Source: Sphingomonas koreensis (lineage in GTDB: Bacteria; Pseudomonadota; Alphaproteobacteria; Sphingomonadales; Sphingomonadaceae). Taken from it: a stretch of DNA of 64,000 nucleotides. The position numbers were made by a program, and so were the translations under genes. The DNA lies in NCBI GenBank assembly GCA_006438735.1, contig RCZF01000001.1, positions 806,001 through 870,000 on the forward strand, written 5' to 3'. Below are positions 15,992 to 55,743 of the stretch, in pieces; position 1 is the first letter of the stretch, and each line of letters begins with the position of its first letter. Under the pieces are notes generated by a model. The model was not told the origin of the DNA and ran no database searches. It worked only from the letters and a program-made list of their open reading frames with translations.

Positions 15992-16018
15992 AGGATCATT
16001 CCTTTCCGGTTAAGCCTC

Positions 16019-16068: not shown

Positions 16069-16118
16069 TGCGGGGTTGAGGCGCGGCGCTTAGCCGAGCC
16101 GGCTCACGAAATCAAGCG

Positions 16119-16150: not shown

Positions 16151-16235
16151 GATCGAAACGTGGGAACGGAACGAACCGAGGGCATCGACGTTGCCCCCGA
16201 AGACTTCCGCGCCCCGCATCGAACGGAGATGGGCA

Positions 16236-26638: not shown

Positions 26639-26653
26639 GCTTGAGTCTCCTTG

Positions 26654-35839: not shown

Positions 35840-37585
<1,746 letters not shown>

Positions 37586-37712
37586 GGCGTTTCTCTCCAC
37601 TCTTGAATGTCGGGTTTGTCTTTATCGCGTCAGTTGGAAACGATAGAGTTGATTCTCGCGTCGCTCAAGGCAATAGGAGGACGCAAGTTTGAATGAAAGG
37701 TATGGAGTAACG

Positions 37713-39067: not shown

Positions 39068-41098
39068 ATGACCGGCCCGATCACCACCCACCGCCACGGC
39101 GACGTCCTCGTCATCGTTTCGAACAACCCGCCGGTCAACGCGCTCGGCGCCGCGGTTCGGCAGGGGATCGAGGCGGCGATCAAGGAAGGCGTCGCCGACG
39201 ATACCGTCCACGCGGTGGTGATCCGCTGCGACGGCAGGACCTTCTTCGCCGGCGCCGACATCACCGAATTCGGCAAGCCGATGCAAGAGCCAGCGCTCCC
39301 CACCTTGGTCGACATGATCGAGGCTGCCGACAAACCGATCATCGCTGCGATCCACGGCACCGCGCTGGGCGGCGGCTGCGAAGTCGCGCTGGGCTGTCAT
39401 TACCGCATCGCCGTCCCCTCGGCGAAGCTCGGCACGCCCGAGGTGAAGCTCGGCCTGCTGCCCGGGGCCGGCGGCACGCAGCGTATTCCGCGCATCGCCG
39501 GCGTCGCGCTGGCGCTTGAAATGACCGCCAAGGGCGATCCGATCCCGGCCAAAAAGGCGCTCGACGCCGGGCTGATCGACAAGCTCGCCGGCGAGGACAG
39601 CCTGGAGGCCGACGCGATCGCCTTTGCCCGCGAGGTCATTGGCAAGCCGCTCCCGCGCGCCAGCCAGAAGACCGCCAAGCCTGATCCCGAAGCGGTCGAA
39701 GCCTTCAAGAAGGCCAACGCCCGTCGCTTCCGCGGCTTCGACGCGCCCGCCGCCAACATCGCCTGCGTCGAAAAAGCAGCCTCGGGCGTTAGCTTCGACG
39801 AAGGCGTCCAGTTCGAGCGCGCGGAGTTCATGAAACTGATGATGGGCGTGCAATCCGCTGCGCAGCGCCACATCTTCTTCGCCGAGCGCAAGGCGCAAAA
39901 GATCGACGGCATCGCCGACGACATCCGGTTGCGCGACATCAAGCGCGTCGGCGTGATCGGCGCCGGCACGATGGGCGGCGGCATTTCGATGAACTTCCTG
40001 TCGGCGGGCATCCCGGTGACGATCGTCGAGATGCAGCAGGATGCGCTTGATCGCGGAACGGCCACGATCCGCAAGAATTACGAAGCGACCGCCGCCAAGG
40101 GCCGGATGAAGCCCGAGCAGGTCGAGGCGGCGATGGGCGCGCTGAAGCCGACGCTCAGCCTCGACGATCTCGCCGACTGCGACCTCGTCATTGAGGCGGT
40201 CTATGAAAATATGGATGTGAAGAAGGAGATTTTCGGCAAGCTCGACGCCATCTGCAAGCCCGGCGCGATCCTCGCGTCGAACACCTCTTATCTCGACGTC
40301 AACGAGATTGCCGCCAGCACCAAACGACCGCAGGATGTGCTCGGCATGCACTTCTTCTCGCCGGCCAATGTGATGAAGCTGCTCGAGGTCGTGCGCGGCG
40401 ACAAGACCGCCGACGACGTGCTCGCCACGGTGATGGCGCTGGCCAAGAAAATCCGCAAAGTCGCGGTAGTCGCGGGCGTATGCCACGGCTTCATCGGCAA
40501 CCGCATGCTGATGCCGCGCCAAATCGAGGCGATGAAGCTGCTGATGGAAGGCGCGACGCCCGAGCAGATCGACACGGTCCATGTCGATTTCGGCATGCCG
40601 ATGGGGCCGTTCCAGATGAGCGACCTCGCCGGGGTCGACATCGGCTGGCACCGCGACCCGACCCGCATCGAAAGCATCCGCGACGCGCTCGCCGCCGAAA
40701 AACGCTGGGGCCAGAAGACCAAGGCCGGCTTCTACGATTACGACGACAAGCGGACCCCCTCGCCCTCCCCTCGCGTCGCCGAGATCATTGAGGATTTCCG
40801 CAAGAAGACCGGCACGCCCCGACACGAGGTCACGACCGACGAGATCGTCGAGCGCACGCTCTATCCGATGGTCAACGAAGGTGCGCTGATCCTCGCCGAG
40901 GGCAAGGCGCAGCGCGCAAGCGACGTGGATGTGGTGTGGATCTACGGTTACGGCTGGCCGGTCTATCGCGGCGGCCCGATGTTCTGGGCCGACACCGAAG
41001 GGCTCAAGAAGATCGTCGCGGGGCTGGAGAAGCACGGCTTCGACGTCGCGCCACTGCTCAAGGACAAGGCTGAAAAGGGGGAGCGGTTCAGTGGCTGA
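39068..41098 (+). CDS. Bifunctional enoyl-CoA hydratase / 3-hydroxyacyl-CoA dehydrogenase (FadB/FadJ-like)
   Basis: 676 residues. The N-terminal crotonase domain (about 1-190) has NPPVNALG and the oxyanion loop [13 protein letters not shown], plus [17 protein letters not shown] with the catalytic Glu. The NAD domain begins [14 protein letters not shown] (about 295), followed by the C-terminal dehydrogenase helices containing DIGWHRDP. Length is shorter than E. coli FadB (729) and closer to the peroxisomal-like single-chain enzymes. It performs steps 2 and 3 of beta-oxidation. The following ACAD gene overlaps its end by 8 bases. The open frame extends back through the repeat but the start is fixed by AAGGAG and the conserved N-terminus. 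Confidence 0.95.
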
Positions 41099-42245
41099 TC
41101 TCGAGCAATTCCGCGCCGAAACCCGCGCCTGGCTCGATACCAACTGCCCGCCCGAAATGCGCGAGCCGATGCGTTCCGAAAAGGACGCGGTATGGGGCGG
41201 CCGTGACCAGTCCATGCTCACGCCGGCGCAGAAGCAATGGATGGACGCGATGGGCGCACGCGGCTGGACGGTGCCCGATTGGCCGAAAGACTATGGCGGC
41301 GGGGGCTTGAGCGCGGCAGAGTCGAAGATCCTCCGCGAGGAAATGCGCCGCATCCACGCGCGCAATCCGCTCAACAGCTTCGGCATCTCGATGCTTGGCC
41401 CGGCGCTGCTCAAATATGGCACCGAGGAGCAGAAACTCGAACACCTGCCCAAAATCGCGCGCGGTGAAATTCGCTGGTGCCAAGGCTATTCCGAACCCAA
41501 TGCCGGTTCTGATCTCGCCGGTCTGGCAACATGGGCCGAAGATGCCGGCGATCATTATGTCGTCAACGGCCAGAAGGTCTGGACCAGCTACGCCGACAAG
41601 GCCGACTGGATTTTCTGCCTCGTCCGCACCTCGAAGGAATCGAAGCAGGGCGGCATCAGTTTCCTTTTGTTCGACATGGCGAGCGAGGGCGTCTCGACCA
41701 AACCGATCCTGCTGATCTCGGGCTATTCGCCGTTCTGCGAAACCTTCTTCGACAATGTGAAGGTGCCCAAGGCCAACCGCATCCACGAGGAGAACAAGGG
41801 CTGGGACGTCGCCAAATATCTGCTCGGCCACGAACGCGAGATGATCTCCGGCATGGGGCTGGCGAGCACCGGCGGCGATCCATTGGTCGAGGCGGCACGC
41901 GGCGGCGTCGATCCGATCCTGCGCGGCCAGATCGCGCTGTTCCAGGTCCGCGCGCGCGCTTTCGCAATGCAGTCCGAGCGCTTCATCGACGAGCTGAAAG
42001 CGGGGCGCGCGCACCCGGCGCAGCCCTCGATGATGAAATATTATGGCACCGAGCTCAACAAGACCCGCAATGAGCTGATGATGGCGGCCGGCGGCTCCGA
42101 CGCGCTCGAATGGGATAGCGAGCGCTCCTCGGGCGGCCGCGAGGTACGCGGTTGGCTGCGCTCCAAAGGCAATTCGATCGAGGGCGGGACGAGCGAGATC
42201 CAGCTCAACATCGTGGCGAAACGGATTTTGGATTTGCCGAGCTGA
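41091..42245 (+). CDS. Acyl-CoA dehydrogenase, catalytic (alpha-type) subunit
   Basis: 384 residues; GTG start with GGGGGAG upstream, overlapping the previous gene. The flavin/substrate segment [14 protein letters not shown] and [15 protein letters not shown] are intact. The catalytic base appears to be helix-G Glu248 in LLGHERE; the C-terminal [18 protein letters not shown] also keeps a Glu. It is immediately followed by a second, shorter ACAD lacking both glutamates, suggesting an alpha2beta2 enzyme as in steroid side-chain and ring ACADs. Substrate unknown. Confidence 0.92.
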
Positions 42246-42249
42246 ATAG

Positions 42250-42364
42250 CCCTCTCCCCTGAAGGGGAGAGGGTTGGGAGAGGGGCAGTCGAAACCTTAC
42301 ATCTAACGGGCCGGATGCGAGAGACTGCCCCTCTCCCCGGCCCTCTCCCCTGAAGGGGAGAGGG
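42250..42364. repeat. Paired palindrome, family B
   Basis: Two copies of the perfect palindrome CCCTCTCCCC-TGAA-GGGGAGAGGG-type (42250-42273 and about 42341-42364), with GGGAGAGGGGCAGTC and GACTGCCCCTCTCCC inward-facing flanks. It fills the spacer between the two ACAD genes; the ribosome site of the second ACAD lies at its edge. Confidence 0.88.
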
Positions 42365-42372
42365 AGACCAGA

Positions 42373-43500
42373 ATGCCCCTATACCTCAACGACGAACAGA
42401 CGATGCTGCGCGACACCGCCAAGGACTTCGTCGCCGAACACGCCCCCGTCGCACACCTGCGCAAGTTGCGCGACGCCAAGGATGAAACCGGCTTTTCCCG
42501 CGACCTGTGGAAGCAGTTCGCCGAAATGGGCTTCAACGGCATCCTGATCGGCGAGGATGCCGGCGGCCTCGGCCTCGGCCATGTCGAGGCCGGCGTGGTC
42601 CTCGAGGAAATCGGCCGCAACCTCTCCCCCTCGCCCTTCCTCTCGACCGCCGTCGCCGCGGTGGAAGTGCTCAAGGGGACGCCGCATGCCGACCGATGGT
42701 TCTCCGGCATACTTACCGGCGACTCTATCGCCGCGCTGGCCATCGACGAGGGGCCGAAACACCGCGCCGAAATCGCGATGACCGCCGAGCGGGCCGGCAA
42801 CGGCTTCAAGCTGACCGGCGCCAAGCAGTTCGTCACCCACGGCCATGTCGCCGACGTCATCCTCGTCGCCGCACGCACCGCCGGCAGCGCCGACGAAGCC
42901 GAGGGCATCACGCTGTTCGCGGTCGACCGCGACGCCGCCAACCTCACCAACACCCCCGAACGCCTGGCCGATTCGAGCTTGGCTTCACGGCTGCAATTCG
43001 ATGGCGTCGAGGTCGATGCCGATGCGGTCATCGGCGAAGTCGATGCCGGCGGTGGCCCCTTGAAGCGCCTGCTCGCCGCCGGCCGCACCGGCGCGTCTGC
43101 CGAATTGCTCGGCGTCGGCGGCGGCGCGATGGACATGACCGTCGGCTACCTCAAGGAGCGCAAGCAATTCGGCGCGCCGATCGGCAGCTTCCAGGCACTC
43201 CAGCACCGCGCCGCGCACCTCTATTCGGAAATGGAAGTCGCTCGCGCGGCCGTGCTCAAGGCGCAGCAATTGCTCGACGCCGAAGATGCGGCTGCCGATG
43301 AGGCGGTGTCGGTCGCCAAGGCAATGACCGGCCTCGCCACAACCCTCGCGGTGCAGGAAGGCGTCCAGATGCAGGGCGGCATCGGCATGACCGATGAATA
43401 TGACATCGGCTTCTACATGAAGCGCGCGCGCGTGCTGGCGGAGATGTTCGGCGACGCCAATTTCCACGCCGATCAATTGGCGCGCGCGGCGGGATATTGA
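42373..43500 (+). CDS. Acyl-CoA dehydrogenase family protein, probable non-catalytic (beta-type) partner
   Basis: 375 residues. The ACAD fold is evident (FNGILIGEDAGGLGLG; YLKERKQFGAPIGSFQALQH; MQGGIGMTDEYD). Where the partner has HERE in helix G this protein reads AAGRTG. Where classical ACADs have Y-E-G-T at the C-terminus it has FGDANFH, so both catalytic-Glu positions are lost. The EPxAGSD flavin motif is also replaced (LAIDEGPKHR). This is the pattern of the structural subunit in heteromeric ACADs. It follows the alpha subunit on the same strand with a repeat in the spacer. Confidence 0.88.
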   Translation: MPLYLNDEQTMLRDTAKDFVAEHAPVAHLRKLRDAKDETGFSRDLWKQFAEMGFNGILIGEDAGGLGLGHVEAGVVLEEIGRNLSPSPFLSTAVAAVEVLKGTPHADRWFSGILTGDSIAALAIDEGPKHRAEIAMTAERAGNGFKLTGAKQFVTHGHVADVILVAARTAGSADEAEGITLFAVDRDAANLTNTPERLADSSLASRLQFDGVEVDADAVIGEVDAGGGPLKRLLAAGRTGASAELLGVGGGAMDMTVGYLKERKQFGAPIGSFQALQHRAAHLYSEMEVARAAVLKAQQLLDAEDAAADEAVSVAKAMTGLATTLAVQEGVQMQGGIGMTDEYDIGFYMKRARVLAEMFGDANFHADQLARAAGY

Positions 43501-43508
43501 CCCAAACT

Positions 43509-43608
43509 CCCTCTCCCCTTCAGGGGAGAGGGCCGGGGAGAGGGGCAATCTAAGTCACCGCCTTTTGATTTCCCCTCTCCCAAACCCTCTCCCCTGAAGG
43601 GGAGAGGG
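43509..43608. repeat. Paired palindrome, family B
   Basis: A second copy of the CCCTCTCCCC/GGGGAGAGGG element, again two palindromes about 50 bases apart (43509-43532 and 43585-43608). It fills the whole spacer between the second ACAD and the tesB gene, so it must be part of their transcript. Confidence 0.88.
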
Positions 43609-43623
43609 CTTTATAGGAACCCG

Positions 43624-44511
43624 ATGGACAACGCCGCCCCTGACACACCCCCCGCCGAGCTCACGCGCGCGCTGGTCGATCTCCTCACCATCGAGGAGCT
43701 CGACACCGATCTCTATCGCGGGAGCCGCCAGCCCGGCGGCGTCGGCCGGGTGTTCGGCGGGCAGGTGATCGCGCAGGCGCTCCAGGCCGCGCAACGCTCG
43801 ACCGAAGCGCCCAAGACCGCGCACTCGCTCCACGCCTATTTCATGCGCCCGGGCAGCGAGGATTTCCCGATCATCTTCCGTGTCGTGCGCGATTTCGAGG
43901 GCCGCAGCTTCGCCACCCGCCGCGTCATCGCGATGCAGCAGGGCAAGCCGATCCTCAACATGGCGGCGAGCTTCCAGACGCCTGAGGACGGCCTCCACCA
44001 TCAGGATGCGATGCCCGATGTGCCCGGCCCCGATCAGCTCAAGTCCGAAGCCGATCTTCGCCGCGATATGATCGACGAAATTCCCGAGAAATTCCGCCGC
44101 TTCATGCTGCGCGCGCGGCCGATCGAGATTCGCCCGGTCCACCCGCGCTCCTGGTTCCGGCCCGAGCAACGCGAGCCGACGCAATATAGCTGGTTTCGCC
44201 TCGTTTCATCGCTCGGCGACGACGCGACGATGCACCGCGCGATCCTGGCTTATGCCTCGGACATGTCGCTGCTCGGCACCGCGCTATTGCCGCACGGCGT
44301 CAACTGGATGACGCACAATGTGCAGACCGCCAGCCTCGACCATGCTTTGTGGTTCCACGAACCATTCCGCGCCGACGAATGGCTGCTCTACGCCTGCGAC
44401 AGCCCCTGGGCCGGCCATGCCCGCGGCTTCAATCGCGGGCGCATCTTCACCCAGGACGGCCGGCTGGTGGCGAGCGCGACGCAGGAAGGCCTGATCCGGA
44501 TGCGTGAGTAA
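43624..44511 (+). CDS. tesB: Acyl-CoA thioesterase II (TesB family)
   Basis: 295 residues, tandem hot-dog fold. GRVFGGQVIAQALQAAQRS and HSLHAYFMRPG mark the first domain. The second domain has the catalytic Asp in LDHALWFHEPFRADEWLLY and the terminal GRIFTQDGRLVASATQEGLIR. It hydrolyses medium- to long-chain acyl-CoAs and probably relieves CoA trapping in the adjoining beta-oxidation genes. Length is normal for the family (about 285). Confidence 0.94.
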   Translation: MDNAAPDTPPAELTRALVDLLTIEELDTDLYRGSRQPGGVGRVFGGQVIAQALQAAQRSTEAPKTAHSLHAYFMRPGSEDFPIIFRVVRDFEGRSFATRRVIAMQQGKPILNMAASFQTPEDGLHHQDAMPDVPGPDQLKSEADLRRDMIDEIPEKFRRFMLRARPIEIRPVHPRSWFRPEQREPTQYSWFRLVSSLGDDATMHRAILAYASDMSLLGTALLPHGVNWMTHNVQTASLDHALWFHEPFRADEWLLYACDSPWAGHARGFNRGRIFTQDGRLVASATQEGLIRMRE

Positions 44512-44518
44512 TCGCGCG

Positions 44519-45655
44519 TCAGTCGATCGTTTTGCCCGGTTCCCCGGGTTTGCCCATCTTGAAATTCACCCGCTGGACGCAGCCGGTATAGCCGCGCTTC
44601 GACACCGGCTTGGTCGATTGCCGGATCGTCTGAATCGCCTGCGTGCCGAAGACGTCGGCGGGCTCAGCCGCAAGCACCTTGATGTCGCCCGTCTCGCCCC
44701 ACGGCGCGACGTCGAACCGCACGATCGCCCAACCCTCGATCGATCGTTTGCCGAACGGCTCGGGAAAGCTCAGCAAGCCAAGATGGGTCCAGTCACCGGC
44801 ACCCTCGCAATCTGCATCGGCCGGGCGCAGCGCGCCCGCCTTCGGTCCCTCCGGCGCCTGCAGCGGCTCGATCGGGGTGCGGCGGAACGGATAGGTGCAT
44901 CCCGATCGCGCACCTTTCGCGAAACGCGAGCGCTTGATCGACGCGACGCCCTTCGCCTCGAGATCGCGATTGCCGTCCGAAGCGACGACGCGAACATGGA
45001 TCGGCTTGCCGCGTGCGTCGATGTCATACTCTATTGTCGTGAAGCTCCGCGTGCCCGGCGCTTGCGGAATCGTCTCGAAATCGGGCCACACACGAACCAG
45101 TTCGGCCGGCGCATAGGGCGTGAAGCAGGTCGATCCCGGAGGCGGGGTCCGCTCGAAAATATCGCGCTCGTCGCCCCGTTTGACGTGCGGCAGCGCAAAA
45201 TAACGCATCGCCTCGGCCGGCGGCACGGCACTGACCGGCTGGTCGTGGATCGTGAACGCAATGGTGCAGCGCGTCTGCGGCGCCGCCGCGGCAAACCGCC
45301 ATGCGGCAAAAGCGGGCATGACGTCGCTGGCGTCGATCCAACCGGGAACAGCGTCTTGGCCTTCGTGATCGATGTCGATCGGACGGCCATCGCCATCGAT
45401 CGAGAAATGGATGCGATAGAAACCCCGCGCCGGTGACATTTGGTTGCTGCCGTAAGCGAATCCGACCGAGGCCATCGGCGCCTCTTCGCGCGTCGCCGTC
45501 ACCGCGATTCCAGCGCAGTCGACCGCGCCGGGCTCGAAGGTGACGAAACGGTGTCTTTCAAACGCACCGGGCGGCAGCGGACCATCGGCGACTGGCGGGG
45601 GCGGCGCCAGCTGGCCAGCAACCAGCAACGAGGCGAATAAGGCGATGAACGGCAT
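44519..45655 (-). CDS. Secreted protein with three TonB-C-like modules and six paired cysteines
   Basis: 378 residues with a signal peptide (first about 15 residues) and no membrane anchor or proline-rich TonB spacer. Three successive segments resemble TonB C-terminal domains: about residues 75-135 (FYRIHFSIDGDGRPIDI), 200-258 (FTTIEYDIDARGKPIHV) and 305-365 (GWAIVRFDVAPWGETGDI). There are exactly six Cys (47, 130, 177, 253, 283, 359), two per module at spacings of 83, 76 and 76, suggesting one disulfide per module in the periplasm. It is commonly labelled an energy transducer TonB, but without an anchor it cannot transduce energy in the usual way. Function unknown. It converges with tesB. 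Confidence 0.75.
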   Translation of the reverse strand: MPFIALFASLLVAGQLAPPPPVADGPLPPGAFERHRFVTFEPGAVDCAGIAVTATREEAPMASVGFAYGSNQMSPARGFYRIHFSIDGDGRPIDIDHEGQDAVPGWIDASDVMPAFAAWRFAAAAPQTRCTIAFTIHDQPVSAVPPAEAMRYFALPHVKRGDERDIFERTPPPGSTCFTPYAPAELVRVWPDFETIPQAPGTRSFTTIEYDIDARGKPIHVRVVASDGNRDLEAKGVASIKRSRFAKGARSGCTYPFRRTPIEPLQAPEGPKAGALRPADADCEGAGDWTHLGLLSFPEPFGKRSIEGWAIVRFDVAPWGETGDIKVLAAEPADVFGTQAIQTIRQSTKPVSKRGYTGCVQRVNFKMGKPGEPGKTID

Positions 45656-45713
45656 GCTGGCAAACTGCGCCGACCCGGTTACGCTTTCAAGTCAAGATGT
45701 TGTGCAGCAATAG

Positions 45714-46511
45714 TCAAGCCGCGGTCTTGCCGAATTCCTGCCGCGTCACCGGATGGCTCGATGACAGCCCGCCATCGACTACGATCGCCTGGCCGTTGAC
45801 ATAGCTCGCATCGTCGGAGGCAAGGAACAGCGCCACGCGACCGATCTCCTCGGGCTCGCCGCCACGGCGCAGAGGATTGAGCCGGCCGATCCGGTCCTCC
45901 TTGCCGTTCTCGCGGGCGTATTCGTAGGCGCGCACCGTCATGCCGGTTTCGATCAGGCCGGGGCAGATCGCGTTGACGCGCACGCCCGAACCCGACAATT
46001 GCTGCGCGGCGGTCTGCACAAGATTGATCACGCCGGCCTTCGACGCCGAATAAGGCGGCCCGCCCGCGCCCGAACGCAGGCCGGCAACGCTTGCGGTGCA
46101 GACGATCGCACCGCGCCCGCGCTCGATTATCTTCGGCGCGGCGTGTTTGATCGCGAGGAACGGGCCGATCAGGTTCACGCGCAGGATTTCCTGCCACATC
46201 TCCACCGTGCCCTCGAACAGCCCCGGGATGCCGCCCGAAATACCGGCATTGGCGTAGATCACGTCGAGCCCGCCGAACGCTTCGCACGCCAAGGCGACGG
46301 TGCGCGCGACATCGTCCTCCACCCCCGCATCCATCTGCACCGCCTTGGCGACGCCGCCGTCCTTGGCGATCGACTCGGCGGTTTCGTGCACCGCCTCGCT
46401 CTTGTCGGCGACGATCACCTGCCCGCCCTCGGCCGCGAACAGCCGCGCGGTTACGCGCCCGATCCCCGAGCCCGCGCCGGTGACGATGATCGATTTGCCT
46501 GTGAACCGCAT
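45714..46511 (-). CDS. SDR family NAD(P)-dependent oxidoreductase
   Basis: 265 residues, classical short-chain dehydrogenase. The [10 protein letters not shown] nucleotide loop is at the N-terminus, YANAG in the middle, and the catalytic YSASK near residue 158. [13 protein letters not shown]-type and VDGG ends are present. The acidic residue after beta-2 (ADKSE) hints at NAD preference. It is last in the run ACAD / ADH / kinase / SDR / SDR, so a 3-hydroxyacyl or alcohol substrate from that pathway is likely but not demonstrable. Confidence 0.9.
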
Positions 46512-46521
46512 TTCCTTACCT

Positions 46522-46587
46522 CCGTTCGCCCTGAGCTTGTCGAAGGGCGTGGTCCCAACCGTGCTTCGACAAGCTCAGCACGAACGG
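46522..46587. repeat. Paired palindrome, family E
   Basis: CCGTTCGCCCTGAGCTTGTCGAAGG and the inverse CTTCGACAAGCTCAGCACGAACGG (ending 46587) face each other across about 15 bases. This is the widespread 'GAGCTTGTCGAAG' element of alphaproteobacteria, placed between the two SDR genes. Confidence 0.85.
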
Positions 46588-46595
46588 GGCGTTGT

Positions 46596-47360: not shown

Positions 47361-47374
47361 CTTGCTCCCTCTAA

Positions 47375-48430
47375 TTATTCCGCCCCCGCCTTCACCGCGA
47401 AATCCCAGCTCGCTTGCGCCAGCCGATAGACCTGCGCCGCGGATCGCTCGGCCTGCGCATTCGATGCGGTGCCATCGACGATGCGCTTCTTGATGCCCTG
47501 AACGATCCCGGTCAGCCGGAACAGATTGTAGCTGAAATACCAGTTGAGATCGGGCAAACCTTCGCGCCCCGTTGCTGCGCAATATCGCTGCACCATTTCC
47601 TCGATCGTCGGGATGCCGGTCTGCCCGCCGGTCTTGCCCTTGACGCCCGATCGCCCCTCGGGCTCCGTCACCCAGCTCATCAGGAAATAGGAAAAATCGG
47701 CAAGCGGGTCGCCGAGCGTCGAGAGCTCCCAGTCGAGCACCGCGATCACCTTCGGCTGGTCGGCTGCGAAGATCATATTGTCGATCCGGTAATCGCCGTG
47801 GACGATCGACGTGCGCTCCTGCGGCGGAATCGTCTTGGGCAGCCACTCGATCAGCCGCTCGACCTCGGCCATGTGCTCGGTCTCGCTGGCGCGGTATTGC
47901 TTGGTCCAGCGGCCGACCTGGCGCTCGAAATAATTGCCCGGCTTGCCGTAATCGCCAAGGCCCGCCGCGGCGTAATCCACGCTGTGCAACGCCGCCAGCG
48001 TGTCGCACATCGCATTGTAGATCGCGGTCCGCTCGGCCGGCGCATAGTCGGGCAAGGTGCCGTCCCACAGGTTCCGCCCATCGGCATAGCCCATCACATA
48101 GAACACCGCGCCGATAACGCTCTCGTCGGTGCACAGCCCATAAGGCCGCGCGACCGGAAAGCCGGTCGGATGCAGTCCCGCAATCAGCCGATATTCGCGA
48201 TCGACCGCATGCGCGGAGGGCAGCAACGGCCCGAACGGCTTGCGGCGCAGCGCATAGCTGCCCGAGGGGCTGTCGATGCGGTAGGTCGGGTTGGATTGGC
48301 CGCCGGCGAACTTGGCGTAGGTAAGCGGCCCGCGGAAGCCCGCGACATGCGCCTCCATCCACGCGGCGAGCGCGGCTTCGTCGAGCCGATCCTTGCCTTG
48401 TGCCGCGATGGTGTTGATCTCGCCGGTCAC
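47375..48430 (-). CDS. Phosphotransferase family protein (ACAD10/11 kinase-domain-like)
   Basis: 351 residues, aminoglycoside-phosphotransferase fold. KFAGGQSNPTYRI opens the ATP lobe, the catalytic loop is HGDYRIDNMIF, and the metal-binding Asp is in VLDWELSTLGDPLADFSYF. This is the type fused to acyl-CoA dehydrogenase in animal ACAD10/11 and free-standing as LvaA in Pseudomonas. Those kinases phosphorylate the 4-hydroxyl of 4-hydroxyacyl-CoAs. The matching ACAD (49729) is two genes upstream in the same run. Drug resistance is unlikely. Confidence 0.88.
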   Translation of the reverse strand: MTGEINTIAAQGKDRLDEAALAAWMEAHVAGFRGPLTYAKFAGGQSNPTYRIDSPSGSYALRRKPFGPLLPSAHAVDREYRLIAGLHPTGFPVARPYGLCTDESVIGAVFYVMGYADGRNLWDGTLPDYAPAERTAIYNAMCDTLAALHSVDYAAAGLGDYGKPGNYFERQVGRWTKQYRASETEHMAEVERLIEWLPKTIPPQERTSIVHGDYRIDNMIFAADQPKVIAVLDWELSTLGDPLADFSYFLMSWVTEPEGRSGVKGKTGGQTGIPTIEEMVQRYCAATGREGLPDLNWYFSYNLFRLTGIVQGIKKRIVDGTASNAQAERSAAQVYRLAQASWDFAVKAGAE

Positions 48431-48434
48431 CGTT

Positions 48435-48524
48435 TGTCATCCCCGCGCAAGCGGGGATCCATCTCCCCACCCTTGAACCAAGCACAACCGGCGCGAGATG
48501 CGCCCCCGCCTTCGCGGGGGTGAC
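48435..48524. repeat. Paired palindrome, family D
   Basis: GTCATCCCCGCGCAAGCGGGGATCC (48435 onward) and CCCCCGCCTTCGCGGGGGTGAC (ending about 48524), about 40 bases apart, between the kinase and alcohol dehydrogenase genes. The 'CCCCGCGCAAGCGGGG' unit is a common Sphingomonas-type palindrome. Confidence 0.85.
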
Positions 48525-48539
48525 GGGCGTTGGGCTGGC

Positions 48540-49622
48540 TCACGCGAACACCACCACCGACCTGGTCGCATCACCTTTTCGGAGCTCGTCAAACGCATGG
48601 TTGATCTGCTCCAACGGCAATCGCTCGGCGATGATCGTGTCGAGATCGAGCACCCCGCGCATATAGAAATCGACCAGCCGCGGGATTTCCACCGGAAAGC
48701 GGTTCGCCCCCATCAGCGCGCCTTGCAGTCGCTTGCCGGACAGCAGATCGAGCGCCGACAGCCCGACCTTTTCGGCGAGCGGCATCATGCCGAGAATCGT
48801 CGCCGTCCCGCCGCGCCGCAGCACCTTGACCGCGGTCGCCGCCGATTGCGGCCGCCCGACCGCCTCGATCGCATGATGCACGCCGCCTTTGGTAATCTCG
48901 ACCACCTGATCGGCGCAGGTTTCCGACAGCGCATCCACCGAATGCGTTGCCCCCAGTTTCTCGGCGAGCGCGCGCTTGTCGGCGACCGGATCGACTGCGA
49001 TGATCTTTCCCGCCCCCGCAATCTTCGCCGCGTTGATCGCCGCCAGCCCGACGCCGCCGCAGCCGACCACGCATACGGTCTCGCCAGGCGTCACGTCGGC
49101 GGCGTTGAACACCGCGCCCGCCCCCGTCGTCACCGCGCAGCCGATGATCGCCGCGCGGTCGAGCGGCATGTCACGATCGATCGCGACGCAGGCGTGCTCG
49201 TGGATCAGCATCATTTCGGCATAGGCCGACAGGTTGAGCATCTGATGGACGATTTGCTCCCCCATGCTGAGCCGCGGCGGCTGGCCCTTGGCGCGTTTGG
49301 TATCGGGCGCGATGCACAGCGACATGTGCCCGGTGACGCAGAACTCGCAATGGCCACAATAGGCCGACAGGCAGGTGACGACATGATCGCCCGGCTTCAC
49401 CGTGCGCACCTCGTCCCCCACCGCCTCGACGACGCCCGCCGCCTCATGCCCCGGGATCGTCGGCATCGGATGCGGATAGGCACCATCGACGAAATGCAGA
49501 TCGGATCGGCACACGCCGACCGCCGCGGTGCGGATCAGCACCTCGTGCGGGCCGGGCTTGGCGATCGATACATCCTCGATCGACAGGGGTGTCTTCGCTT
49601 CGAACAGGACGGCTGCTTTCAC
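48540..49622 (-). CDS. Zinc-dependent alcohol dehydrogenase (class III/benzyl-alcohol type MDR)
   Basis: 360 residues, medium-chain dehydrogenase. The catalytic-zinc region is GVCRSDLHF with GHEAAGVVE. The structural-zinc cluster is CGHCEFCVTGHMSLC, all four Cys present. The NAD fold begins VCVVGCGGVGLAAINAA. It oxidises a primary or secondary alcohol; within this run it may act on the hydroxy- or keto-acid chain, but formaldehyde or aryl alcohols cannot be excluded. A family A repeat lies between it and the upstream ACAD. Confidence 0.92.
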   Translation of the reverse strand: MKAAVLFEAKTPLSIEDVSIAKPGPHEVLIRTAAVGVCRSDLHFVDGAYPHPMPTIPGHEAAGVVEAVGDEVRTVKPGDHVVTCLSAYCGHCEFCVTGHMSLCIAPDTKRAKGQPPRLSMGEQIVHQMLNLSAYAEMMLIHEHACVAIDRDMPLDRAAIIGCAVTTGAGAVFNAADVTPGETVCVVGCGGVGLAAINAAKIAGAGKIIAVDPVADKRALAEKLGATHSVDALSETCADQVVEITKGGVHHAIEAVGRPQSAATAVKVLRRGGTATILGMMPLAEKVGLSALDLLSGKRLQGALMGANRFPVEIPRLVDFYMRGVLDLDTIIAERLPLEQINHAFDELRKGDATRSVVVFA

Positions 49623-49636
49623 TCTTCTCTCCCTTC

Positions 49637-49722
49637 GTCACCCCGGACTTGTTCCGGGGTCCACCGCGCCCCGAACGTCGGCGCAAGCGGATGAGTGGAT
49701 GCCGGAACAAGTCCGGCATGAC
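49637..49722. repeat. Paired palindrome, family A, in the ACAD-ADH spacer
   Basis: GTCACCCCGGACTTG...CCGGGGTCCACC (49637-49665) and GTGGATGCCGGAACAAG...CCGGCATGAC (49695-49722). It has the same orientation as the copy at 17214 and fills nearly all of the 106-base spacer. Confidence 0.9.
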
Positions 49723-49728
49723 GATTTG

Positions 49729-51006
49729 TTAGCGCCGCACCATTTCCTTCGCCGCCACCGCCTCGGGCAGATCGGCATACCGCCCGAACTCGTTGCGCGC
49801 GATCGCCCGGTTGTGGACCTCGTCCGGCCCATCGGCGAAGCGCAGCGTCCGCATCGCCGCCCAGGCGTGCGCGAGCCCGAAATCCTGGCTCACCCCGCCG
49901 CCGCCATGCGCCTGGATCGCGTCGTCGAGGATCGACAGCGCCATGTTCGGCGCGGCGACCTTGATCATCGCGATCTCCATCTGCGCCGCCTTGTTGCCGG
50001 CCTTGTCCATCATGTCGGCGGCCTTGAGGCACAGCAGCCGCGTCATCTCGATATCGATCCGCGCCTTGGCGATGCGCTGTTCCCAGATCGAGTGATCGGC
50101 GATCCGCTTGCCGAACGCGACGCGCGTCAGAAGCCGCTTGGCCATCGCCTCGATCGCGGTTTCGGCCACGCCGATCGTGCGCATGCAATGATGGATGCGC
50201 CCCGGCCCGAGCCGGCCCTGCGCGATCTCGAACCCGCGCCCCTCGCCAAGCAGGATATTCTCCACCGGCACCTTCACGTCCTCGAGCAGCACCTCACCAT
50301 GCCCGTGCGGCGCATGGTCATAGCCATAGACCGACAGCATCCGCTCGATCGTCACGCCGGGGCTTTCCATATCGAGGATCATCATCGATTGCTGCGTGTG
50401 GCGGCTTGCCTCGGGGTTGGTCTTGCCCATCAGGATCGCGACCTTGCAGCGCGGATCGCCGACCCCCGACGACCACCACTTCCGCCCGTTTACGACATAA
50501 TAATCGCCCTGCAATTCCATCCGCGTCTGGATGTTGGTCGCGTCGGACGACGCCACCGCCGGCTCGGTCATCAGGAACGCCGATCGAATCTCGCCGTTCA
50601 TCAATGGCCGCAGCCAGCGTTCCTTCTGCTCGGCGGTTCCGTAGCGCAGCAGCACTTCCATATTGCCGGTATCGGGCGCGGAGCAATTGAAGCACTCGCT
50701 CGCCCAGCCGACCTTGCCCATTTCCTCGGCGCACAAAGCATACTCAAGGTTCGTAAGCTGCTCACCCTCGAATTCGAAACTGTCATCGACATGGGCCCGC
50801 CCGGATCGCGGCGGCATGAAGAAATTCCACAGGCCGGCGGCCTTCGCTTTGGCCTTCACGTCTTCGATCACCGGAATGACTTTCCAGCGTTCGCCGTCAT
50901 GCGCCTGGGCGTCATGTTCGGCCTGGCGGGCGCGGATTTCGCGGTCGATGAAGTCCTTCACCCGGTCACGCCAATAGGTCTGCCGATCGGTCAGCGTGAA
51001 ATCCAT
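49729..51006 (-). CDS. Acyl-CoA dehydrogenase, ACAD10/11 (LvaC) type
   Basis: 425 residues. [17 protein letters not shown] is the flavin-binding variant of this subgroup. The C-terminal region reads [17 protein letters not shown], the hallmark of ACAD10/11-like enzymes, in place of the Y-E-G-T of beta-oxidation ACADs. Relatives eliminate phosphate from 4-phosphoacyl-CoAs made by the partner kinase. It is first in the run ACAD / ADH / kinase / SDR / SDR and divergent from a double-TetR regulator 170 bases away, its likely controller. Confidence 0.9.
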
Positions 51007-51144
51007 GCCTCATCCTCCACCATGCCTATTTGACGCCGGGCCTAGACCATACCGCATCTTCGGTAAAGTCGATCCGCCGCCGTTTTGCGCGCACTTGCCG
51101 CATGTTATTGCGCGGTCACGCTCCGGTCATAAAAAGTTCTGTCT

Positions 51145-51157
51145 CTTCGAACCGAAG
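51145..51157. promoter_or_regulatory. Possible operator between the ACAD run and the TetR gene
   Basis: A perfect inverted repeat CTTCG-AAC-CGAAG lies 20 bases before the TetR start in the 170-base divergent spacer. TetR-type dimers typically bind such palindromes. One site only is visible, so the assignment is tentative. Confidence 0.3.
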
Positions 51158-51176
51158 CTGATAATCTGATTTTTGG

Positions 51177-52424
51177 ATGGAGGGGCGAGTGGCGTCAGTG
51201 CGGGAAGAGATCGAGGGCGGAACCAAGCGATTCCGTGCCAAGCGCGACGCGATTCTCGCGGCCGCTGCGCAGGCGATCAACGAGCAGAGCGCGAAAGGCA
51301 TGACCTTCGCCGACGTCGCCCGCCGGGTCGGCCTCAACACCACCAGCGTGACCTATTATTTCAAGCGCAAGGACGATCTCGCCGCCGCCTGTTTCGAAAA
51401 CACGCTCGACACGCTGATGGCAATGCTCGACGAGGCGCTCGACGAGCCGAACCCCGAGGCCCGCGTCGCCCGCTATCTCGCGATCAACATGCAGCGCTTC
51501 GCCCGCATCCAGCGCGGCGAGGAGCAGGAAGTCGCCGTCCTCTCCGATCTGCGCGCGATGGAGGAGCCGTTCAAGGGCCCGCTGCTCGCCGGCTGGCGCG
51601 AGGTATTCCGTAAGACGCGGCGGCTGTGGGGCGCCGACGGCAGCAAGGCGCAGCACGATCTCTACGGCGCGCGCGCGCACGTGCTGCTCGAGAACACCTT
51701 CTGGTTGCCGGTCTGGCTCGAACGCTACGATCCCGATCAATATGGCCGCATCGAGCAGCGGCTGATGGACGTCTTCGCCCACGGCATCGCCGCACCGGGC
51801 CGCGAGTGGACTCCCGAGATGATCGATCTCGATCACGAGGAGGCCGAGCCCAGCCGCGAACAATTCCTGCGTGCCGCCACCCGGCTGATCAACGAGCTCG
51901 GCTATCGCGGCGCTTCGGTGCAGAAGATTGCCAGCGAATTGAACGTCACCAAGGGCAGTTTCTACCATCATCTGGACGCCAAGGACGATCTGGTAATCGC
52001 CTGCTACAAGCGCAGTTTCGACACCATCGCCGACGCGCAGCACCTCGCCGACGATCGCGGCGGCGATTACTGGTCTCGCCTGTCGAGCACGATCGCAACG
52101 CTGCTCGACGTGCAATTCTCCGAACGCGGGCCGCTGCTCCGCACCACCGCGCTTCACGGCCTCCCCCCGCGCGTCCGCCAGCAGATGCTCGACCGCTCGA
52201 ACCGCATCGCGCGGCGCTACGCCGGCACGATGGCCGACGGCATCGCTGAAGGCTCGATCCGCGCGATCGACCCGCTGGTGGCGGCGCAAACGCTGATGGC
52301 GCTGCAGAACGCCGCCTTCGACATGCGCAAATGGGCCAGCACCATGCCGCGCGAAAAAGCGGTGGCGATGTATGCAAGTACGCTGGCGTTCGGGCTGTTC
52401 GACGATCGGGTGCTGCACGACTGA
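51177..52424 (+). CDS. Tandem TetR-type transcriptional regulator (two TetR domains in one chain)
   Basis: 415 residues, about twice normal TetR length. The first DNA-binding domain spans about 23-70 (MTFADVARRVGLNTTSVTYY), with a helical sensor region to about 215. A second complete TetR N-domain follows at about 227-272 (ASVQKIASELNVTKGSFYHH), with its own C-terminal helices. A GTG at 51189, preceded by GGAGGGG, may be the real start; the first four residues are then dropped. One chain could act as an internal dimer or bind two operators. The likely targets are the divergent ACAD/kinase run and other acyl-CoA genes here. Confidence 0.9.
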   Translation: MEGRVASVREEIEGGTKRFRAKRDAILAAAAQAINEQSAKGMTFADVARRVGLNTTSVTYYFKRKDDLAAACFENTLDTLMAMLDEALDEPNPEARVARYLAINMQRFARIQRGEEQEVAVLSDLRAMEEPFKGPLLAGWREVFRKTRRLWGADGSKAQHDLYGARAHVLLENTFWLPVWLERYDPDQYGRIEQRLMDVFAHGIAAPGREWTPEMIDLDHEEAEPSREQFLRAATRLINELGYRGASVQKIASELNVTKGSFYHHLDAKDDLVIACYKRSFDTIADAQHLADDRGGDYWSRLSSTIATLLDVQFSERGPLLRTTALHGLPPRVRQQMLDRSNRIARRYAGTMADGIAEGSIRAIDPLVAAQTLMALQNAAFDMRKWASTMPREKAVAMYASTLAFGLFDDRVLHD

Positions 52425-52514
52425 GGTGGAACTATCCGCATCGCTTGATGCTTTGAAGTCCAGCGGCCCGCGCGCGAATCGCGTCGGTCTTACCCATTTT
52501 AAGGAACTCGGCAC

Positions 52515-53279
52515 ATGAAGACGGCAATCACGACGGCGATGACGGGCCTGGCGCTCGTCGGCCTCAGCGCCTGCTCCAAGCCTGACAACAGCACCGCTGC
52601 GGCAACCGCCAACGTCGCCGATACACCCGCATCGCCGACCGACAGCGCGATGCGCATTCGCGGCACGGCGCAGACGGTTTCGGCCGCTTCGCTGACGGTG
52701 CAGGGCTATGACGGCCAACCCGCCACGGTCTCGCTTGGTGACAAAACCGCTTATGCCTGGGTCGTGCCGTCGAGCCTGTCGACGCTGAAAAACGGCGATT
52801 TCATCGGCACCGCGACGACCGGCGACGGCGCCGATATGAAAGCGCTTGAGGTGGTGATCTTCCCCGAATCGATGCGCGGCACCGGTGAAGGACATTATGG
52901 CTGGCAGATGCCGGCCGCCGTCGCCAATGCCGATCAGCCGGGTGCCGATAGCGCCAGCGCCATGACCAACGGCACCGTCCAGGACGGCGCGATGACCAAC
53001 GGCAGTGTCCAGAATGGCGCGATGACCAACGGCACCGTCCAGAGCGGCGCCGGCGCGGCGGTTCCGGGCGGCGGAACACGTCTGACGATCGGTTACAAGG
53101 GCGGCACGGCCACCGTCATGGTGCCCGACAACGCCCCGATCGTCCGCTTCGAACCGACACAGAAGACGATGCTCGCCAAGGGTCAGAAATTATTCGTCGT
53201 CGCCGCGCCCGGTGCCGGTGGAACGCCTGCCGCGCAGTTCGTCGCGATGGGCAAGGACGGGCTGATGCCGCCGATGTGA
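52515..53279 (+). CDS. Lipoprotein with an internal three-fold decapeptide repeat, function unknown
   Basis: 254 residues. The signal peptide ends in lipobox GLSAC, so Cys20 would be lipidated. Two beta-rich segments (about 45-125 and 185-250) each look like a small OB-like domain (RIRGTAQTVSAASLTVQGYDG; RLTIGYKGGTATVMVPDN). Between them is a low-complexity linker with three copies of a ten-residue unit (AMTNG-T/S-VQ-x-G). The two domains may be an internal duplication. AAGGA precedes the ATG. No family name is recognised with confidence. Confidence 0.8.
   Translation: MKTAITTAMTGLALVGLSACSKPDNSTAAATANVADTPASPTDSAMRIRGTAQTVSAASLTVQGYDGQPATVSLGDKTAYAWVVPSSLSTLKNGDFIGTATTGDGADMKALEVVIFPESMRGTGEGHYGWQMPAAVANADQPGADSASAMTNGTVQDGAMTNGSVQNGAMTNGTVQSGAGAAVPGGGTRLTIGYKGGTATVMVPDNAPIVRFEPTQKTMLAKGQKLFVVAAPGAGGTPAAQFVAMGKDGLMPPM
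52957..53046 (+). repeat. Three tandem 30-bp units inside the lipoprotein gene
   Basis: Units at 52957-52986, 52987-53016 and 53017-53046 differ at a few positions only and encode in-frame copies of A-M-T-N-G-T/S-V-Q-D/N/S-G. Copy number may vary between strains through slippage. Confidence 0.9.
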
Positions 53280-53313
53280 TGGGCAGACGATCGGGGGCTC
53301 CTCCACGACGGCG

Positions 53314-54381
53314 TCAATATCCGTTCAACCGCGCGAAGCGCTCGCGGTGCCATGCGGCTGAGCCCCACATCGTCTCCAGCACCTGCGCGCGCTTCAAGTA
53401 AAAGCCGGCGTCATGCTCGTCGGTCATGCCGATGCCGCCGTGGAGCTGGACCATCTCGCGGCTCACGAGATGCAGCGTATCCCCGGCGAGCGCCTTGGCC
53501 AGGCTCACCGCCTGGTCGACATCCGATCGCCCGGCGTCGATCGCCTCCAGCGCGCCTTCGACCGCGGAGCGCATCAGCTCAAGCTCGGTGAACATCTTCG
53601 CCATGCGGTGCTGCAGCGCCTGAAAGGTCGACAGCGGCTGGCCGAATTGGACGCGTGTCTTGAGGTAATCATTGGTCGTCTCGAACGCATGGTTGGCGAC
53701 GCCGAGCATTTCCGCGGCAGTCGCCGCTGCGGCGAGATCGCACACCCGATCGGTCAGCGCGGCATCGCCGAGCTTGTCGGCGGCGGCACCATCGAAGCGC
53801 ACCTCGGCATGGCTACGCGCATCGACCATCCGCCGCGCGCTGCGTGTCACACCCTTGGCCGCGCCATCGACCAGATACAACCCGTCCGCCGCCGCCACGA
53901 CGAACAACCCGGCGCTATCGCCTTCCGCGACGAACGGCTTGGTCCCGGTGAGCGTGCCGCCCGTGACGGTCGCGCCGATCTTGCGATCGTGCACCGGCCC
54001 TTCGTCGATCGCCAGCGTCGCCACCACCTCGCCGCTGGCGATCCGCGGCAGCCACGCCTGCTTCTGCGCCTCGCTCCCGCCAAGCGCGATCGCCGACGCC
54101 GCCACCGCGGTCGCGGCGAGCGGCGAGGCGGTCAGCGTCCGCCCAAGTTGCTCGAGCACGAGCCCGAGCGACAGATAGCCGAATGCCGATCCGCCGAAAT
54201 CTTCGGGCACGACGATCCCGGCCCAGCCCATCTGCCCGATCTCGCTCCAGGCGGCGGCGTCATAGCCGTGCGCGGGGGCGGCGTTGCGCATCGCGCGAAA
54301 CGCGCTGACGGGCGACTCATTGTCCGCCCATTCGTGCGCCATGTCGCGCAGCATCGTCTGTTCGTCGTTGAGTGCGGCCAT
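53314..54381 (-). CDS. Acyl-CoA dehydrogenase family protein, probable non-catalytic (beta-type) partner
   Basis: 355 residues, similar in plan to the protein at 42373. The fold motifs GIVVPEDFGGSAFGY, YLKTRVQFGQPLSTFQALQH and LHGGIGMTDEHD are present. The helix-G Glu is absent (DLAAAATAAEM) and the C-terminal Glu position reads MWGSAAWH. The flavin motif EPxAGSD is replaced by LAIDEGPVHD. It follows the ACAD at 54523 on the same strand with a family A repeat between them, so the two probably form one heteromeric enzyme. Confidence 0.88.
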   Translation of the reverse strand: MAALNDEQTMLRDMAHEWADNESPVSAFRAMRNAAPAHGYDAAAWSEIGQMGWAGIVVPEDFGGSAFGYLSLGLVLEQLGRTLTASPLAATAVAASAIALGGSEAQKQAWLPRIASGEVVATLAIDEGPVHDRKIGATVTGGTLTGTKPFVAEGDSAGLFVVAAADGLYLVDGAAKGVTRSARRMVDARSHAEVRFDGAAADKLGDAALTDRVCDLAAAATAAEMLGVANHAFETTNDYLKTRVQFGQPLSTFQALQHRMAKMFTELELMRSAVEGALEAIDAGRSDVDQAVSLAKALAGDTLHLVSREMVQLHGGIGMTDEHDAGFYLKRAQVLETMWGSAAWHRERFARLNGY

Positions 54382-54404
54382 CGTAACTCGTCCTCATTTA
54401 TGCC

Positions 54405-54510
54405 GTCATGCCGGACTTGCTCCGGCATCCACCAAGCCCCGCGCGCTGCGTTCTCGGATCAAATTCCTCGCCCGGCGCTACCGTGGACCCCGGAACAAGT
54501 CCGGGGTGAC
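54405..54510. repeat. Paired palindrome, family A, between two ACAD genes
   Basis: GTCATGCCGGACTTG...CCGGCATCCACC (54405-54433) and GTGGACCCCGGAACAAG...CCGGGGTGAC (54483-54510). It has the same orientation as the copy at 13927 and occupies the spacer of an apparent two-gene operon. Confidence 0.9.
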
Positions 54511-54522
54511 GGATAGCCCGCA

Positions 54523-55743
54523 TCACTGATGATCCAGCATCCCCAGGATCCGCTTGGCGACGATGTTGTTCTGGATCTCGCTCGATCCGCCATAGATCGA
54601 CACCGCCTTGCCCCACAGCCACGTCCGCGTTTGCGCGATTTCGTCGGCGCTGAACCCCTCGCCTTCCCAGCCGAGCCCGTTCATCCCCATGATCTCGACG
54701 TTGAGTTCGGCGCGGTCCTGCGTGATCCGCGCGCCGACATTCTTCATGATCGATGTCGCCGCCGACGGCCCCTGGTTCGATTTCGCCTCGATCGCCGCGC
54801 GGCGCAGCGTCAACGCGAAGGCGCGCGCGTCCATTTCGTGCCGCACGATCCGCATCCGCAGATCCTGGTCGGCGATCCGCCCCTGATCGTCGGTCCCGCG
54901 ATATTCCTGGGCGAGGTCATGGACCGGCTTGCCGGCGAACAGCCGCCCCGCCGTCGATCCGCCGCCCGATAAATTCTGCCGCTCATGCTGCAACAGCCGC
55001 TTGCCGATCGTCCAGCCCTGCCCTTCGGCGCCGACCAGGTTCTCCTTGGGCACCTTCACGTCGGTGAAGAACGTTTCGCAGAACGGCGATTGGCCCGAAA
55101 TCAGCCGGATCGGCTTGGTTTCGACACCGGGCGAATCCATGTCGATCAGCAGGAAGCTGATGCCTTCGTGCTTCTTCGATTTGTCGGTGCGCACCAGCGC
55201 GAAGCACTTGTCCGCCCATTGCCCGCCGCTCGTCCACGTCTTCTGCCCGTTGACGAGATAATGGTCGCCGCGATCTTCGGCAAAGGTCTGCAAGCTGGCG
55301 AGATCGGACCCCGCGCCCGGCTCCGAATAGCCCTGGCACCAGCGCACCTCGCCCTTGGCGATCGCCGGGATATGCGTTTGCTTCTGCGCTTCGGAGCCAT
55401 ATTCCAGCAGCGTCGGGCCGAACATCATCACGCCCATCCCGCCGATCGGGTTCCACGCGCCCGCACGCGCCATTTCCTCGGCCAGCACGCGCGCCTCGGC
55501 GCGGCTCAGCCCGCCGCCGCCATAAGCCTTGGGCCAGGTCGGCACGCCCCAGCCCTTCTCGCCCATCGCCTTGCGCCACGCTTCCTCGTCGGCGCTAGGC
55601 TCCGACGGCCCCTCGACCGCGGACATCGCATTGTCCTTGCCTTTCAGGCTCGGCGGAAAATGGGCCGCCAGCCAGCTTCGCGCTTCGGCGCGGAACGCCT
55701 CGATCGGATCGGCCGTGCTATCGACCTCGGCAACGCTCGCCAT
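54523..55743 (-). CDS. Acyl-CoA dehydrogenase, catalytic (alpha-type) subunit
   Basis: 406 residues from MASVAEVDSTADPIEA; GGAGAG lies upstream of the ATG. GYSEPGAGSDLASLQ and NGQKTWTSGGQWADK are the flavin/substrate motifs. The probable base is helix-G Glu254 in LLQHERQ. The C-terminal equivalent of Y-E-G-T reads IYGGSSEIQNN, so the helix-G Glu must serve, as in isovaleryl- and ChsE-type enzymes. The next gene downstream is its Glu-less partner. It is divergent from the GST gene. Confidence 0.92.
   Translation of the reverse strand: MASVAEVDSTADPIEAFRAEARSWLAAHFPPSLKGKDNAMSAVEGPSEPSADEEAWRKAMGEKGWGVPTWPKAYGGGGLSRAEARVLAEEMARAGAWNPIGGMGVMMFGPTLLEYGSEAQKQTHIPAIAKGEVRWCQGYSEPGAGSDLASLQTFAEDRGDHYLVNGQKTWTSGGQWADKCFALVRTDKSKKHEGISFLLIDMDSPGVETKPIRLISGQSPFCETFFTDVKVPKENLVGAEGQGWTIGKRLLQHERQNLSGGGSTAGRLFAGKPVHDLAQEYRGTDDQGRIADQDLRMRIVRHEMDARAFALTLRRAAIEAKSNQGPSAATSIMKNVGARITQDRAELNVEIMGMNGLGWEGEGFSADEIAQTRTWLWGKAVSIYGGSSEIQNNIVAKRILGMLDHQ

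Follow-up and report, generated by a model that had tools for sequence, protein, structure and literature searches.

Several described acyl-CoA dehydrogenases (ACADs) are built from two unlike subunits that divide one flavin adenine dinucleotide (FAD) site between them. In the portion of PMC10925408 available to us, the alpha subunits of ChsE4-ChsE5 (FadE26-FadE27; 4x28) and ChsE1-ChsE2 provide the isoalloxazine side and the catalytic Glu, and the beta subunits contact the ADP-ribose; the accessible text of PMC8399759 places two active sites in each alpha2beta2 assembly. Tcur3481-Tcur3483 (6wy8/6wy9) likewise restricts Glu to alpha and divides its FAD site. A heteromeric layout is also seen in steroid ACADs of the IpdE1-IpdE2, ScdC1C2, and Scd4AB type, of which Scd4AB, a sphingomonad enzyme according to excerpts of PMC8399759 and PMC12882949, is known here by description and not by sequence. 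The pimeloyl-CoA dehydrogenase PimC/PimD (TIGR03204/TIGR03203) shares the large/small layout. Here we describe two adjacent ACAD gene pairs in a 64,000-nucleotide stretch of Sphingomonas koreensis (assembly GCA_006438735.1, contig RCZF01000001.1, positions 806,001 to 870,000 of the forward strand), called the window below. Judging from motifs and relatives, we consider it quite probable that both pairs are paralogous, obligately heteromeric ACADs, most likely alpha2beta2, and probably not steroid enzymes in this setting.

The genes of the two pairs, in window coordinates, are as follows.

41091-42245, plus strand: alpha1, catalytic ACAD subunit (GTG start, helix-G Glu E248, EP-x-AGSD)
42373-43500, plus strand: beta1, non-catalytic ACAD subunit (RxQF, FQALQH, and QxxGGxG kept; G237, F359)
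53314-54381, minus strand: beta2, non-catalytic ACAD subunit, paralogue of beta1 (A217, W339)
54523-55743, minus strand: alpha2, catalytic ACAD subunit, paralogue of alpha1 (E254)

The coordinates of the two pairs given in the first-pass annotation (41091+42373 and 54523+53314) were borne out, as was its description of their residues. Both alphas retain the helix-G Glu (E248 and E254) together with EP-x-AGSD, the EP Glu being E135 in alpha1 and E141 in alpha2; the position of the C-terminal, medium-chain-ACAD-type Glu is occupied by Gly365 and Gly385. The betas have Glu at neither catalytic position, with G237 (beta1) and A217 (beta2) at the helix-G place and F359 and W339 at the C-terminal one, and they have lost AGSD, so that the E of "EP" alone remains. 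Alpha1 and alpha2 are 50.3% identical and beta1 and beta2 42.5%, and alpha to beta identity is 17.5 to 20.4%; the four proteins are two paralogous pairs. The source genome is a 3.6-Mb draft in 9 contigs (99.98% complete), with the window in contig 1. Genome-wide there are 12 matches to the ACAD N-terminal domain, 5 of them inside the window, and no two of the other 7 are adjacent. The nearest named match of alpha1 is from a Sphingomonas metagenome-assembled genome (MAG; 82%).

To place these residues in a wider family, we used related loci, comprising the best 80 of 594 matches, all named, with flanks of up to 10 kb, many of them shortened by contig ends. From the loci then collected we drew 94 alphas and 72 betas, the beta class being defined by at least 400 bits with its own profile; a further 22 ACADs with lower scores were classed as "other." The helix-G Glu is present in 93 of the 94 alphas (the remaining one has a gap), and all 94 have Glu in the EP motif, Ser and Asp in AGSD, and the Trp that comes next. 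None of the 72 betas has Glu at either catalytic position. With such counts, the pattern of catalytic residues is not a matter of chance. The first-pass annotation had made its reading of the betas depend on there being no Glu elsewhere in their active site, and a near-invariant Glu does lie seven residues past the helix-G position (E244 in beta1; 69 of 72 betas). The equivalent residue is Glu in five, Asp in two, and Ala in one of eight readable PimD-type betas, Glu or Gln in four betas of the Novosphingobium ES2-1 HIP cluster, and Gln in two homomeric ACADs aligned to beta2 (4l1f and 4u83); we read it as probably structural and not catalytic.

The betas also hold the other half of the pattern, which the first-pass annotation had missed, namely, the complementary retention of FAD-ADP motifs. 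The RxQF Arg, the FQALQH Gln, and the QxxGGxG residues are found in 72 of 72 betas and the RxQF Phe in 71. The corresponding ADP-side columns show no conservation in the 94 alphas; at the QxxGGxG Gln column the six commonest letters (E, A, S, D, R, and N) account for 85 of 94. Thus, each pair is made up of two neighboring ACAD genes that differ from each other, only one of which encodes the catalytic Glu, and at the sequence level the motif counts place the isoalloxazine/Glu half of the FAD site in alpha and the ADP half in beta. Because these complementary motifs match the split site of ChsE4-ChsE5, an alpha2beta2 enzyme is very likely, and the motifs and the best solved relatives alike support the alpha2beta2-type division of function that the first-pass annotation had proposed. 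In such an enzyme, alpha would contain the flavin ring and the pocket for acyl-CoA, with the helix-G Glu as catalytic base, and beta would hold the ADP part of the same FAD, having lost its own active site; there would therefore be one working site per alpha-beta pair and not two. The reaction of the pairs would be the alpha,beta-desaturation that opens beta-oxidation, carried out on acyl-CoAs that are poor substrates of ordinary fatty-acid ACADs. Quaternary structure, FAD stoichiometry, and substrate class are points that we infer.

Gene order among the relatives is consistent with this pairing. A beta lies directly downstream of 71 of the 94 alphas. The other 23 comprise six alphas at a locus end, eight whose locus does contain a beta, but one outside the distance rule (more distant or overlapping) or separated by a further alpha, and nine without a beta. 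Locus L084 (a Caulobacteraceae MAG) has four tandem alphas and one beta at 9902-16168, and locus L068 (a Caulobacter MAG) has two tandem alphas and one beta at 2674-7488, which suggests that one beta may serve several alphas. Across the 71 pairs, alpha distances correlate with beta distances (Mantel r of 0.803, reached in 0 of 2000 permutations), to which shared species history contributes. Alpha and beta trees agree, with alpha1 going with the relatives of beta1 and alpha2 with those of beta2. The alpha-beta gap in 69 plus-strand pairs is 1 to 28 bp in 27 and at least 130 bp in 12. A sigma-70 scan gave no match and was uninformative. Separately, we observed palindromes resembling repetitive extragenic palindromes (REP-like) in these gaps. 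A pair of them (42250-42364) fills the 127-bp gap between alpha1 and beta1, and a further pair lies past beta1 (43509-43608); by our count the genome contains 20 distinct sites of this family, of which four surround beta1. A second family contributes a doublet (54404-54511) to the 141-bp gap between alpha2 and beta2, and another REP-like doublet is found at 49636-49723.

Among solved structures, sequence search ranks ChsE4 (4x28_A) and Tcur3483 highest for both alphas and Tcur3481 highest for both betas, with ChsE5 (4x28_D) lower. The window pairs are, however, at most about 31% identical to these enzymes, and their alphas fall in a separate clade, with no steroid gene found nearby or genome-wide by the probes described below. 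The AlphaFold2 model of beta1 (predicted local distance difference test score [pLDDT] of 93.0) best matches an ordinary ACAD, 8sgs_A (Z 48.1, root-mean-square deviation [rmsd] 1.9, 368 aligned residues), followed by 6wy8_C (Z 46.6, rmsd 1.8, 356 aligned) and 4x28_C (Z 45.9, rmsd 1.8, 357 aligned). The top VIA match of the alpha1 model is Tcur3483 (6wy9_A; Z 30.0, rmsd 4.4, 362 aligned); next come 6wy8_B, Fic32-33, and ACAD11, and 4x28_B gives Z 25.7 with rmsd 4.7 over 353 residues. Residues 136-140, in the EP-AGSD loop, and 256-260 of this model have pLDDT below 50, and an ill-ordered flavin loop in a lone alpha1 model is compatible with dependence on beta. Fic32-33 (8hk0, titled as a complex; Z 27.1, rmsd 4.6, 356 aligned to alpha1) may be another non-steroid heteromeric ACAD; we found no paper on it. 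The portion of PMC10925408 available to us also gives a large-pocket rule based on Pro91 of ChsE4. In pairwise alignments, the window alphas have Asn or Gly at this place, and their Pro (NP-L/I) comes two positions before it. Helices 75-87 and 97-109 of the alpha1 model are separated by a break, a comparison made without reference helix limits.

Curated family models and trees set the pairs apart from the named lineages. The best NCBIfam model of both alphas is PimC (274.8 and 283.4 bits against a cut-off of 623.85), that of beta1 is PimD (212 against 652.7), and that of beta2 is IpdE2 (147.7 against 450), with PimD at 141.3 against 652.7. As all four proteins score below the cut-offs, none qualifies as a member of the PimC, PimD, or IpdE2 model. 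In a maximum-likelihood tree of 67 alphas, for which relatives were hand-picked from the loci, the window alphas belong to a 45-row clade (100/100) apart from the ChsE4/igr (100/99), PimC (99/95), and HIP/IpdE-type (100/99) clades. Alpha1 and alpha2 occupy different subclades, each with members of other orders, so their split is old. In the beta tree (57 rows), beta1 and beta2 group with the partners of the relatives of alpha1 and alpha2, respectively. An alpha1 orthologue (at least 59% identity) is present in 97 of 149 genomes sampled from the family. These results suggest an enzyme type already known, represented here by a clade distinct from the ChsE, IpdE, and Pim lineages; a literature search of limited depth found no description of this clade.

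Since PimC and PimD are the best models for three of the four proteins, the pairs could be PimCD-like enzymes for linear medium-chain dicarboxylic acids. There is a precedent in Ralstonia CL21, in which, according to the part of PMC12543098 accessible to us, a PimCD-like pair that its authors think may be a heterotetramer shows fitness defects on linear C8-C12 dicarboxylic acids. The window proteins nevertheless reach less than half of the curated cut-off scores, and nine PimC-type rows with one Croceicoccus row form their own clade (99/95), different from that of the window alphas. Additionally, an above-cut-off PimC and an alpha of the window clade coexist in two Bradyrhizobium genomes. We rejected the pairs as PimCD equivalogs on these scores and the separate clade, and regard the broader dicarboxylate assignment as rather unlikely. 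The Croceicoccus row deserves mention in its own right. Plasmid pCME4A9I of Croceicoccus marinus carries a third alpha/beta pair (locus L001, 14352-16637), PimCD-like in both trees, which adjoins the orthologue of pair 1. The same plasmid carries pair 1, pair 2, the ligase, the double TetR, and the ACAD11-type genes together.

The first-pass annotation had gone from the alpha2beta2 layout to steroid or ring substrates, and it is here that we part from it. That inference found no support in the clade, the genome, the neighborhood, or the family at large. The S. koreensis genome has no match to the HsaC probe and none to the Ltp2 probe, and the IpdA probe finds just one CoA transferase (29% identity, E of 5.1e-10). 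The same probes do work in the family: among the 149 genomes, HsaC is found in 24 (E of 1e-20 or below), Ltp2 in 41, and IpdA in 16 (E of 1e-40 or below), and S. koreensis is in none of these sets. None of nine probes (IpdA twice, IpdB, EchA20, IpdC, Ltp2 twice, HsaC, and FadD3) found a match of at least 40% identity over 60% in any of the 80 related loci. KstD and KshA were kept outside the marker set, as the breadth of their families prevents a clear yes or no. The alpha1 orthologue occurs in 11 of 16 genomes with IpdA and in 86 of 133 without it (Fisher p of 1.0); it is therefore widespread in the family and independent of this marker.

The probes were named by annotation and gene order. 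The FadD3 family model and the PRK07855 lipid-transfer (Ltp2-type) model score above their cut-offs on the respective probes; the IpdA and IpdB probes have no model at E of 1e-30. For the VOC protein probe, from a Vibrio plasmid, HsaC is the best NCBIfam model (281.9 bits against a cut-off of 450). A by-eye comparison of places shows an HsaC-like gene directly next to IpdA in 13 of the 16 IpdA genomes, in support of the names. At E of 1e-40, the Ltp2 probe also catches thiolase-like relatives, and by eye a match of at least 56% identity is found in 11 of its 41 genomes.

It is possible that the pairs act on steroid or bile-acid side chains that are scavenged without degradation of the rings. 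Steroid ACADs are the closest solved relatives, and the CoA ligase at 35840-37600 scores best, below the cut-off, with CasG, the model of a steroid-24-oyl-CoA synthetase (449.5 bits against 750). Located between the pairs is a double TetR regulator, and the regulon of Mce3R (PMC10843139, in the part available), itself a double TetR (PMC11667970), includes fadE17 and fadE18. A pair from Vibrio alfacsensis (identity to the window proteins: 46.6% and 43.0% for alpha, 35.0% and 40.0% for beta) falls inside the clade of the window alphas, on a long branch, and adjoins an igr-like operon; the same plasmid has a CoA-transferase/VOC/HIP-type cluster, named from annotation and gene order. By gene order alone, this pair resembles the scd2-scd1 genes (Scd1AB) that the accessible part of PMC8399759 tabulates for Pseudomonas stutzeri Chol1. 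The Vibrio row is, however, the sole exception to the separation of the ChsE4/igr and HIP-type clades from that of the window alphas, and the HIP-cluster alphas of Novosphingobium ES2-1 and of Vibrio itself group elsewhere. With the marker results in the genome, the loci, and the family, we hold the side-chain reading to be distinctly improbable; steroid catabolism as the setting was rejected for the markers tested. As the split-site architecture persists in this clade with no tie to steroid genes, the layout alone is no guide to substrate, and genomes that have it are easily mislabeled as steroid degraders. On the Vibrio plasmid itself, pYa108 (loci L009, L013, and L014), we noted a gene set of the steroid-degradation type, made up of the igr-like operon, a CoA-transferase, a nitronate monooxygenase, a VOC dioxygenase, and further ACADs, and, apart from it, an exopolysaccharide/exosortase region; two other pair-bearing plasmids of V. 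alfacsensis are from fish.

The genes around the pairs offer another view of substrate and are listed below.

35840-37600, minus strand: CoA ligase
37689-38948, plus strand: serine hydrolase
39068-41098, plus strand: FadB-like enoyl-CoA hydratase/3-hydroxyacyl-CoA dehydrogenase (FadB/FadJ models, below cut-off)
43624-44511, plus strand: TesB-type acyl-CoA thioesterase, 3' of beta1 (TIGR00189, 284.6 bits, cut-off 292.85)
Between the thioesterase and the ACAD11-type ACAD, minus strand: two short-chain dehydrogenase/reductase enzymes (the second named by eye) and, past the kinase, a zinc alcohol dehydrogenase
47375-48430, minus strand: APH-fold kinase, LvaA/ACAD11-kinase-like (HGDYRIDN loop)
49729-51006, minus strand: LvaC/ACAD11-type ACAD (R-x7-H-x2-R, DGPDE Asp)
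51177-52424, plus strand: tandem (double) TetR regulator, between the modules (two TetR_N stretches)
Beyond alpha2, plus strand: glutathione S-transferase-like gene (by eye), CoA ligase, and thioesterase-like gene (by eye)

The start of alpha1 overlaps the stop of the FadB-like gene (41098) by 8 bp, and the two are probably in the same operon. The kinase and the ACAD at 49729-51006 form a two-gene version of mammalian ACAD10/11. According to the part of PMC12440821 available, LvaA/LvaC and ACAD10/11 convert 4-hydroxyacyl-CoA to 2-enoyl-CoA through a phosphate. The putative window module shares with them an APH kinase and an ACAD in which the R626/H634/R637 spacing and the catalytic Asp are kept, but it has two genes and no fusion. 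The R-x7-H-x2-R helix motif of LvaC/ACAD11 is present in the window ACAD and in 23 of 23 relatives. DGPDE, with Asp in place of the C-terminal Glu, is present in the window ACAD and in 17 of the 23; of the remaining six, four have ADGP and two have no match to the pattern. The window copy is the sole match in its genome at E of 1e-40. An ACAD11-type gene (at least 40% identity) is found in 22 of the 80 loci, with the kinase also in 12, and in 16 of the 21 loci sorted as Sphingomonadales by title; in six loci outside that order (L033, L040, L041, L044, L053, and L074) it shares the strand of the alpha and is no more than 3 kb away. Double-TetR homologues of at least 40% identity occur in 7 of the 80 loci, and the one in Croceicoccus (48%) stands beside pair 2. 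The best 60 of 107 rows of a PDB search with the double TetR were single TetR proteins (best 4.7e-09), and its likeness to Mce3R is one of architecture only.

Taken together, pair 1 appears to be part of a beta-oxidation island of the Sphingomonadales, often with a FadB-like protein and an LvaA/LvaC (ACAD10/11)-type kinase and ACAD, and this company makes hydroxylated, branched, or dicarboxylic acids the likeliest substrates. Such a pathway would strip a 4-hydroxyl and then need a special ACAD for the remaining chain. We tentatively propose, while regarding it as more doubtful than not, that a widespread, mainly proteobacterial alpha2beta2 ACAD clade cooperates with a split-ACAD11 4-hydroxyacyl-CoA kinase and phospho-eliminating ACAD in a conserved island of sphingomonads through which gamma-hydroxylated or lactone-derived acids enter beta-oxidation, under an Mce3R-like double-TetR switch in some lineages. 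The recurrent ACAD11-type neighborhood points to a concrete, testable substrate class.

Several observations weigh against a non-steroid, obligately heteromeric enzyme with such a role. The ACAD11 link lies mostly within one order, so inherited gene order, and not shared function, could explain much of it. The Vibrio pair beside its igr-like operon leaves a bulky substrate possible, and the CasG score of the CoA ligase has been noted. The isolated alpha1 model is only fair (pLDDT of 84.5), with high rmsd to Tcur3483 (4.4) and ChsE4 (4.7), and the whole window clade of the beta tree has unstarred support (89/95). Finally, nine of the 94 alphas have no beta in the available stretch and also lack the ADP half; they would need a distant or shared beta, probably borrowed from elsewhere. 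These nine might suggest that the betas are degenerating and the alphas function alone, a reading to which we give almost no credence, as the betas are open frames whose FAD-ADP residues are kept throughout but unconserved in the alphas, the nine solo ones included, and beta distances track alpha distances.

Two minor features of the window remain to be recorded. Upstream of the island, at 25568-28559 on the minus strand, lie genes that we take by eye to be RutA-, RutD-, and RutB-like pyrimidine-degradation genes. Between the double TetR and beta2, a small protein (52515-53279) contains three 30-nt tandem repeats within its gene, at 52957-53050.

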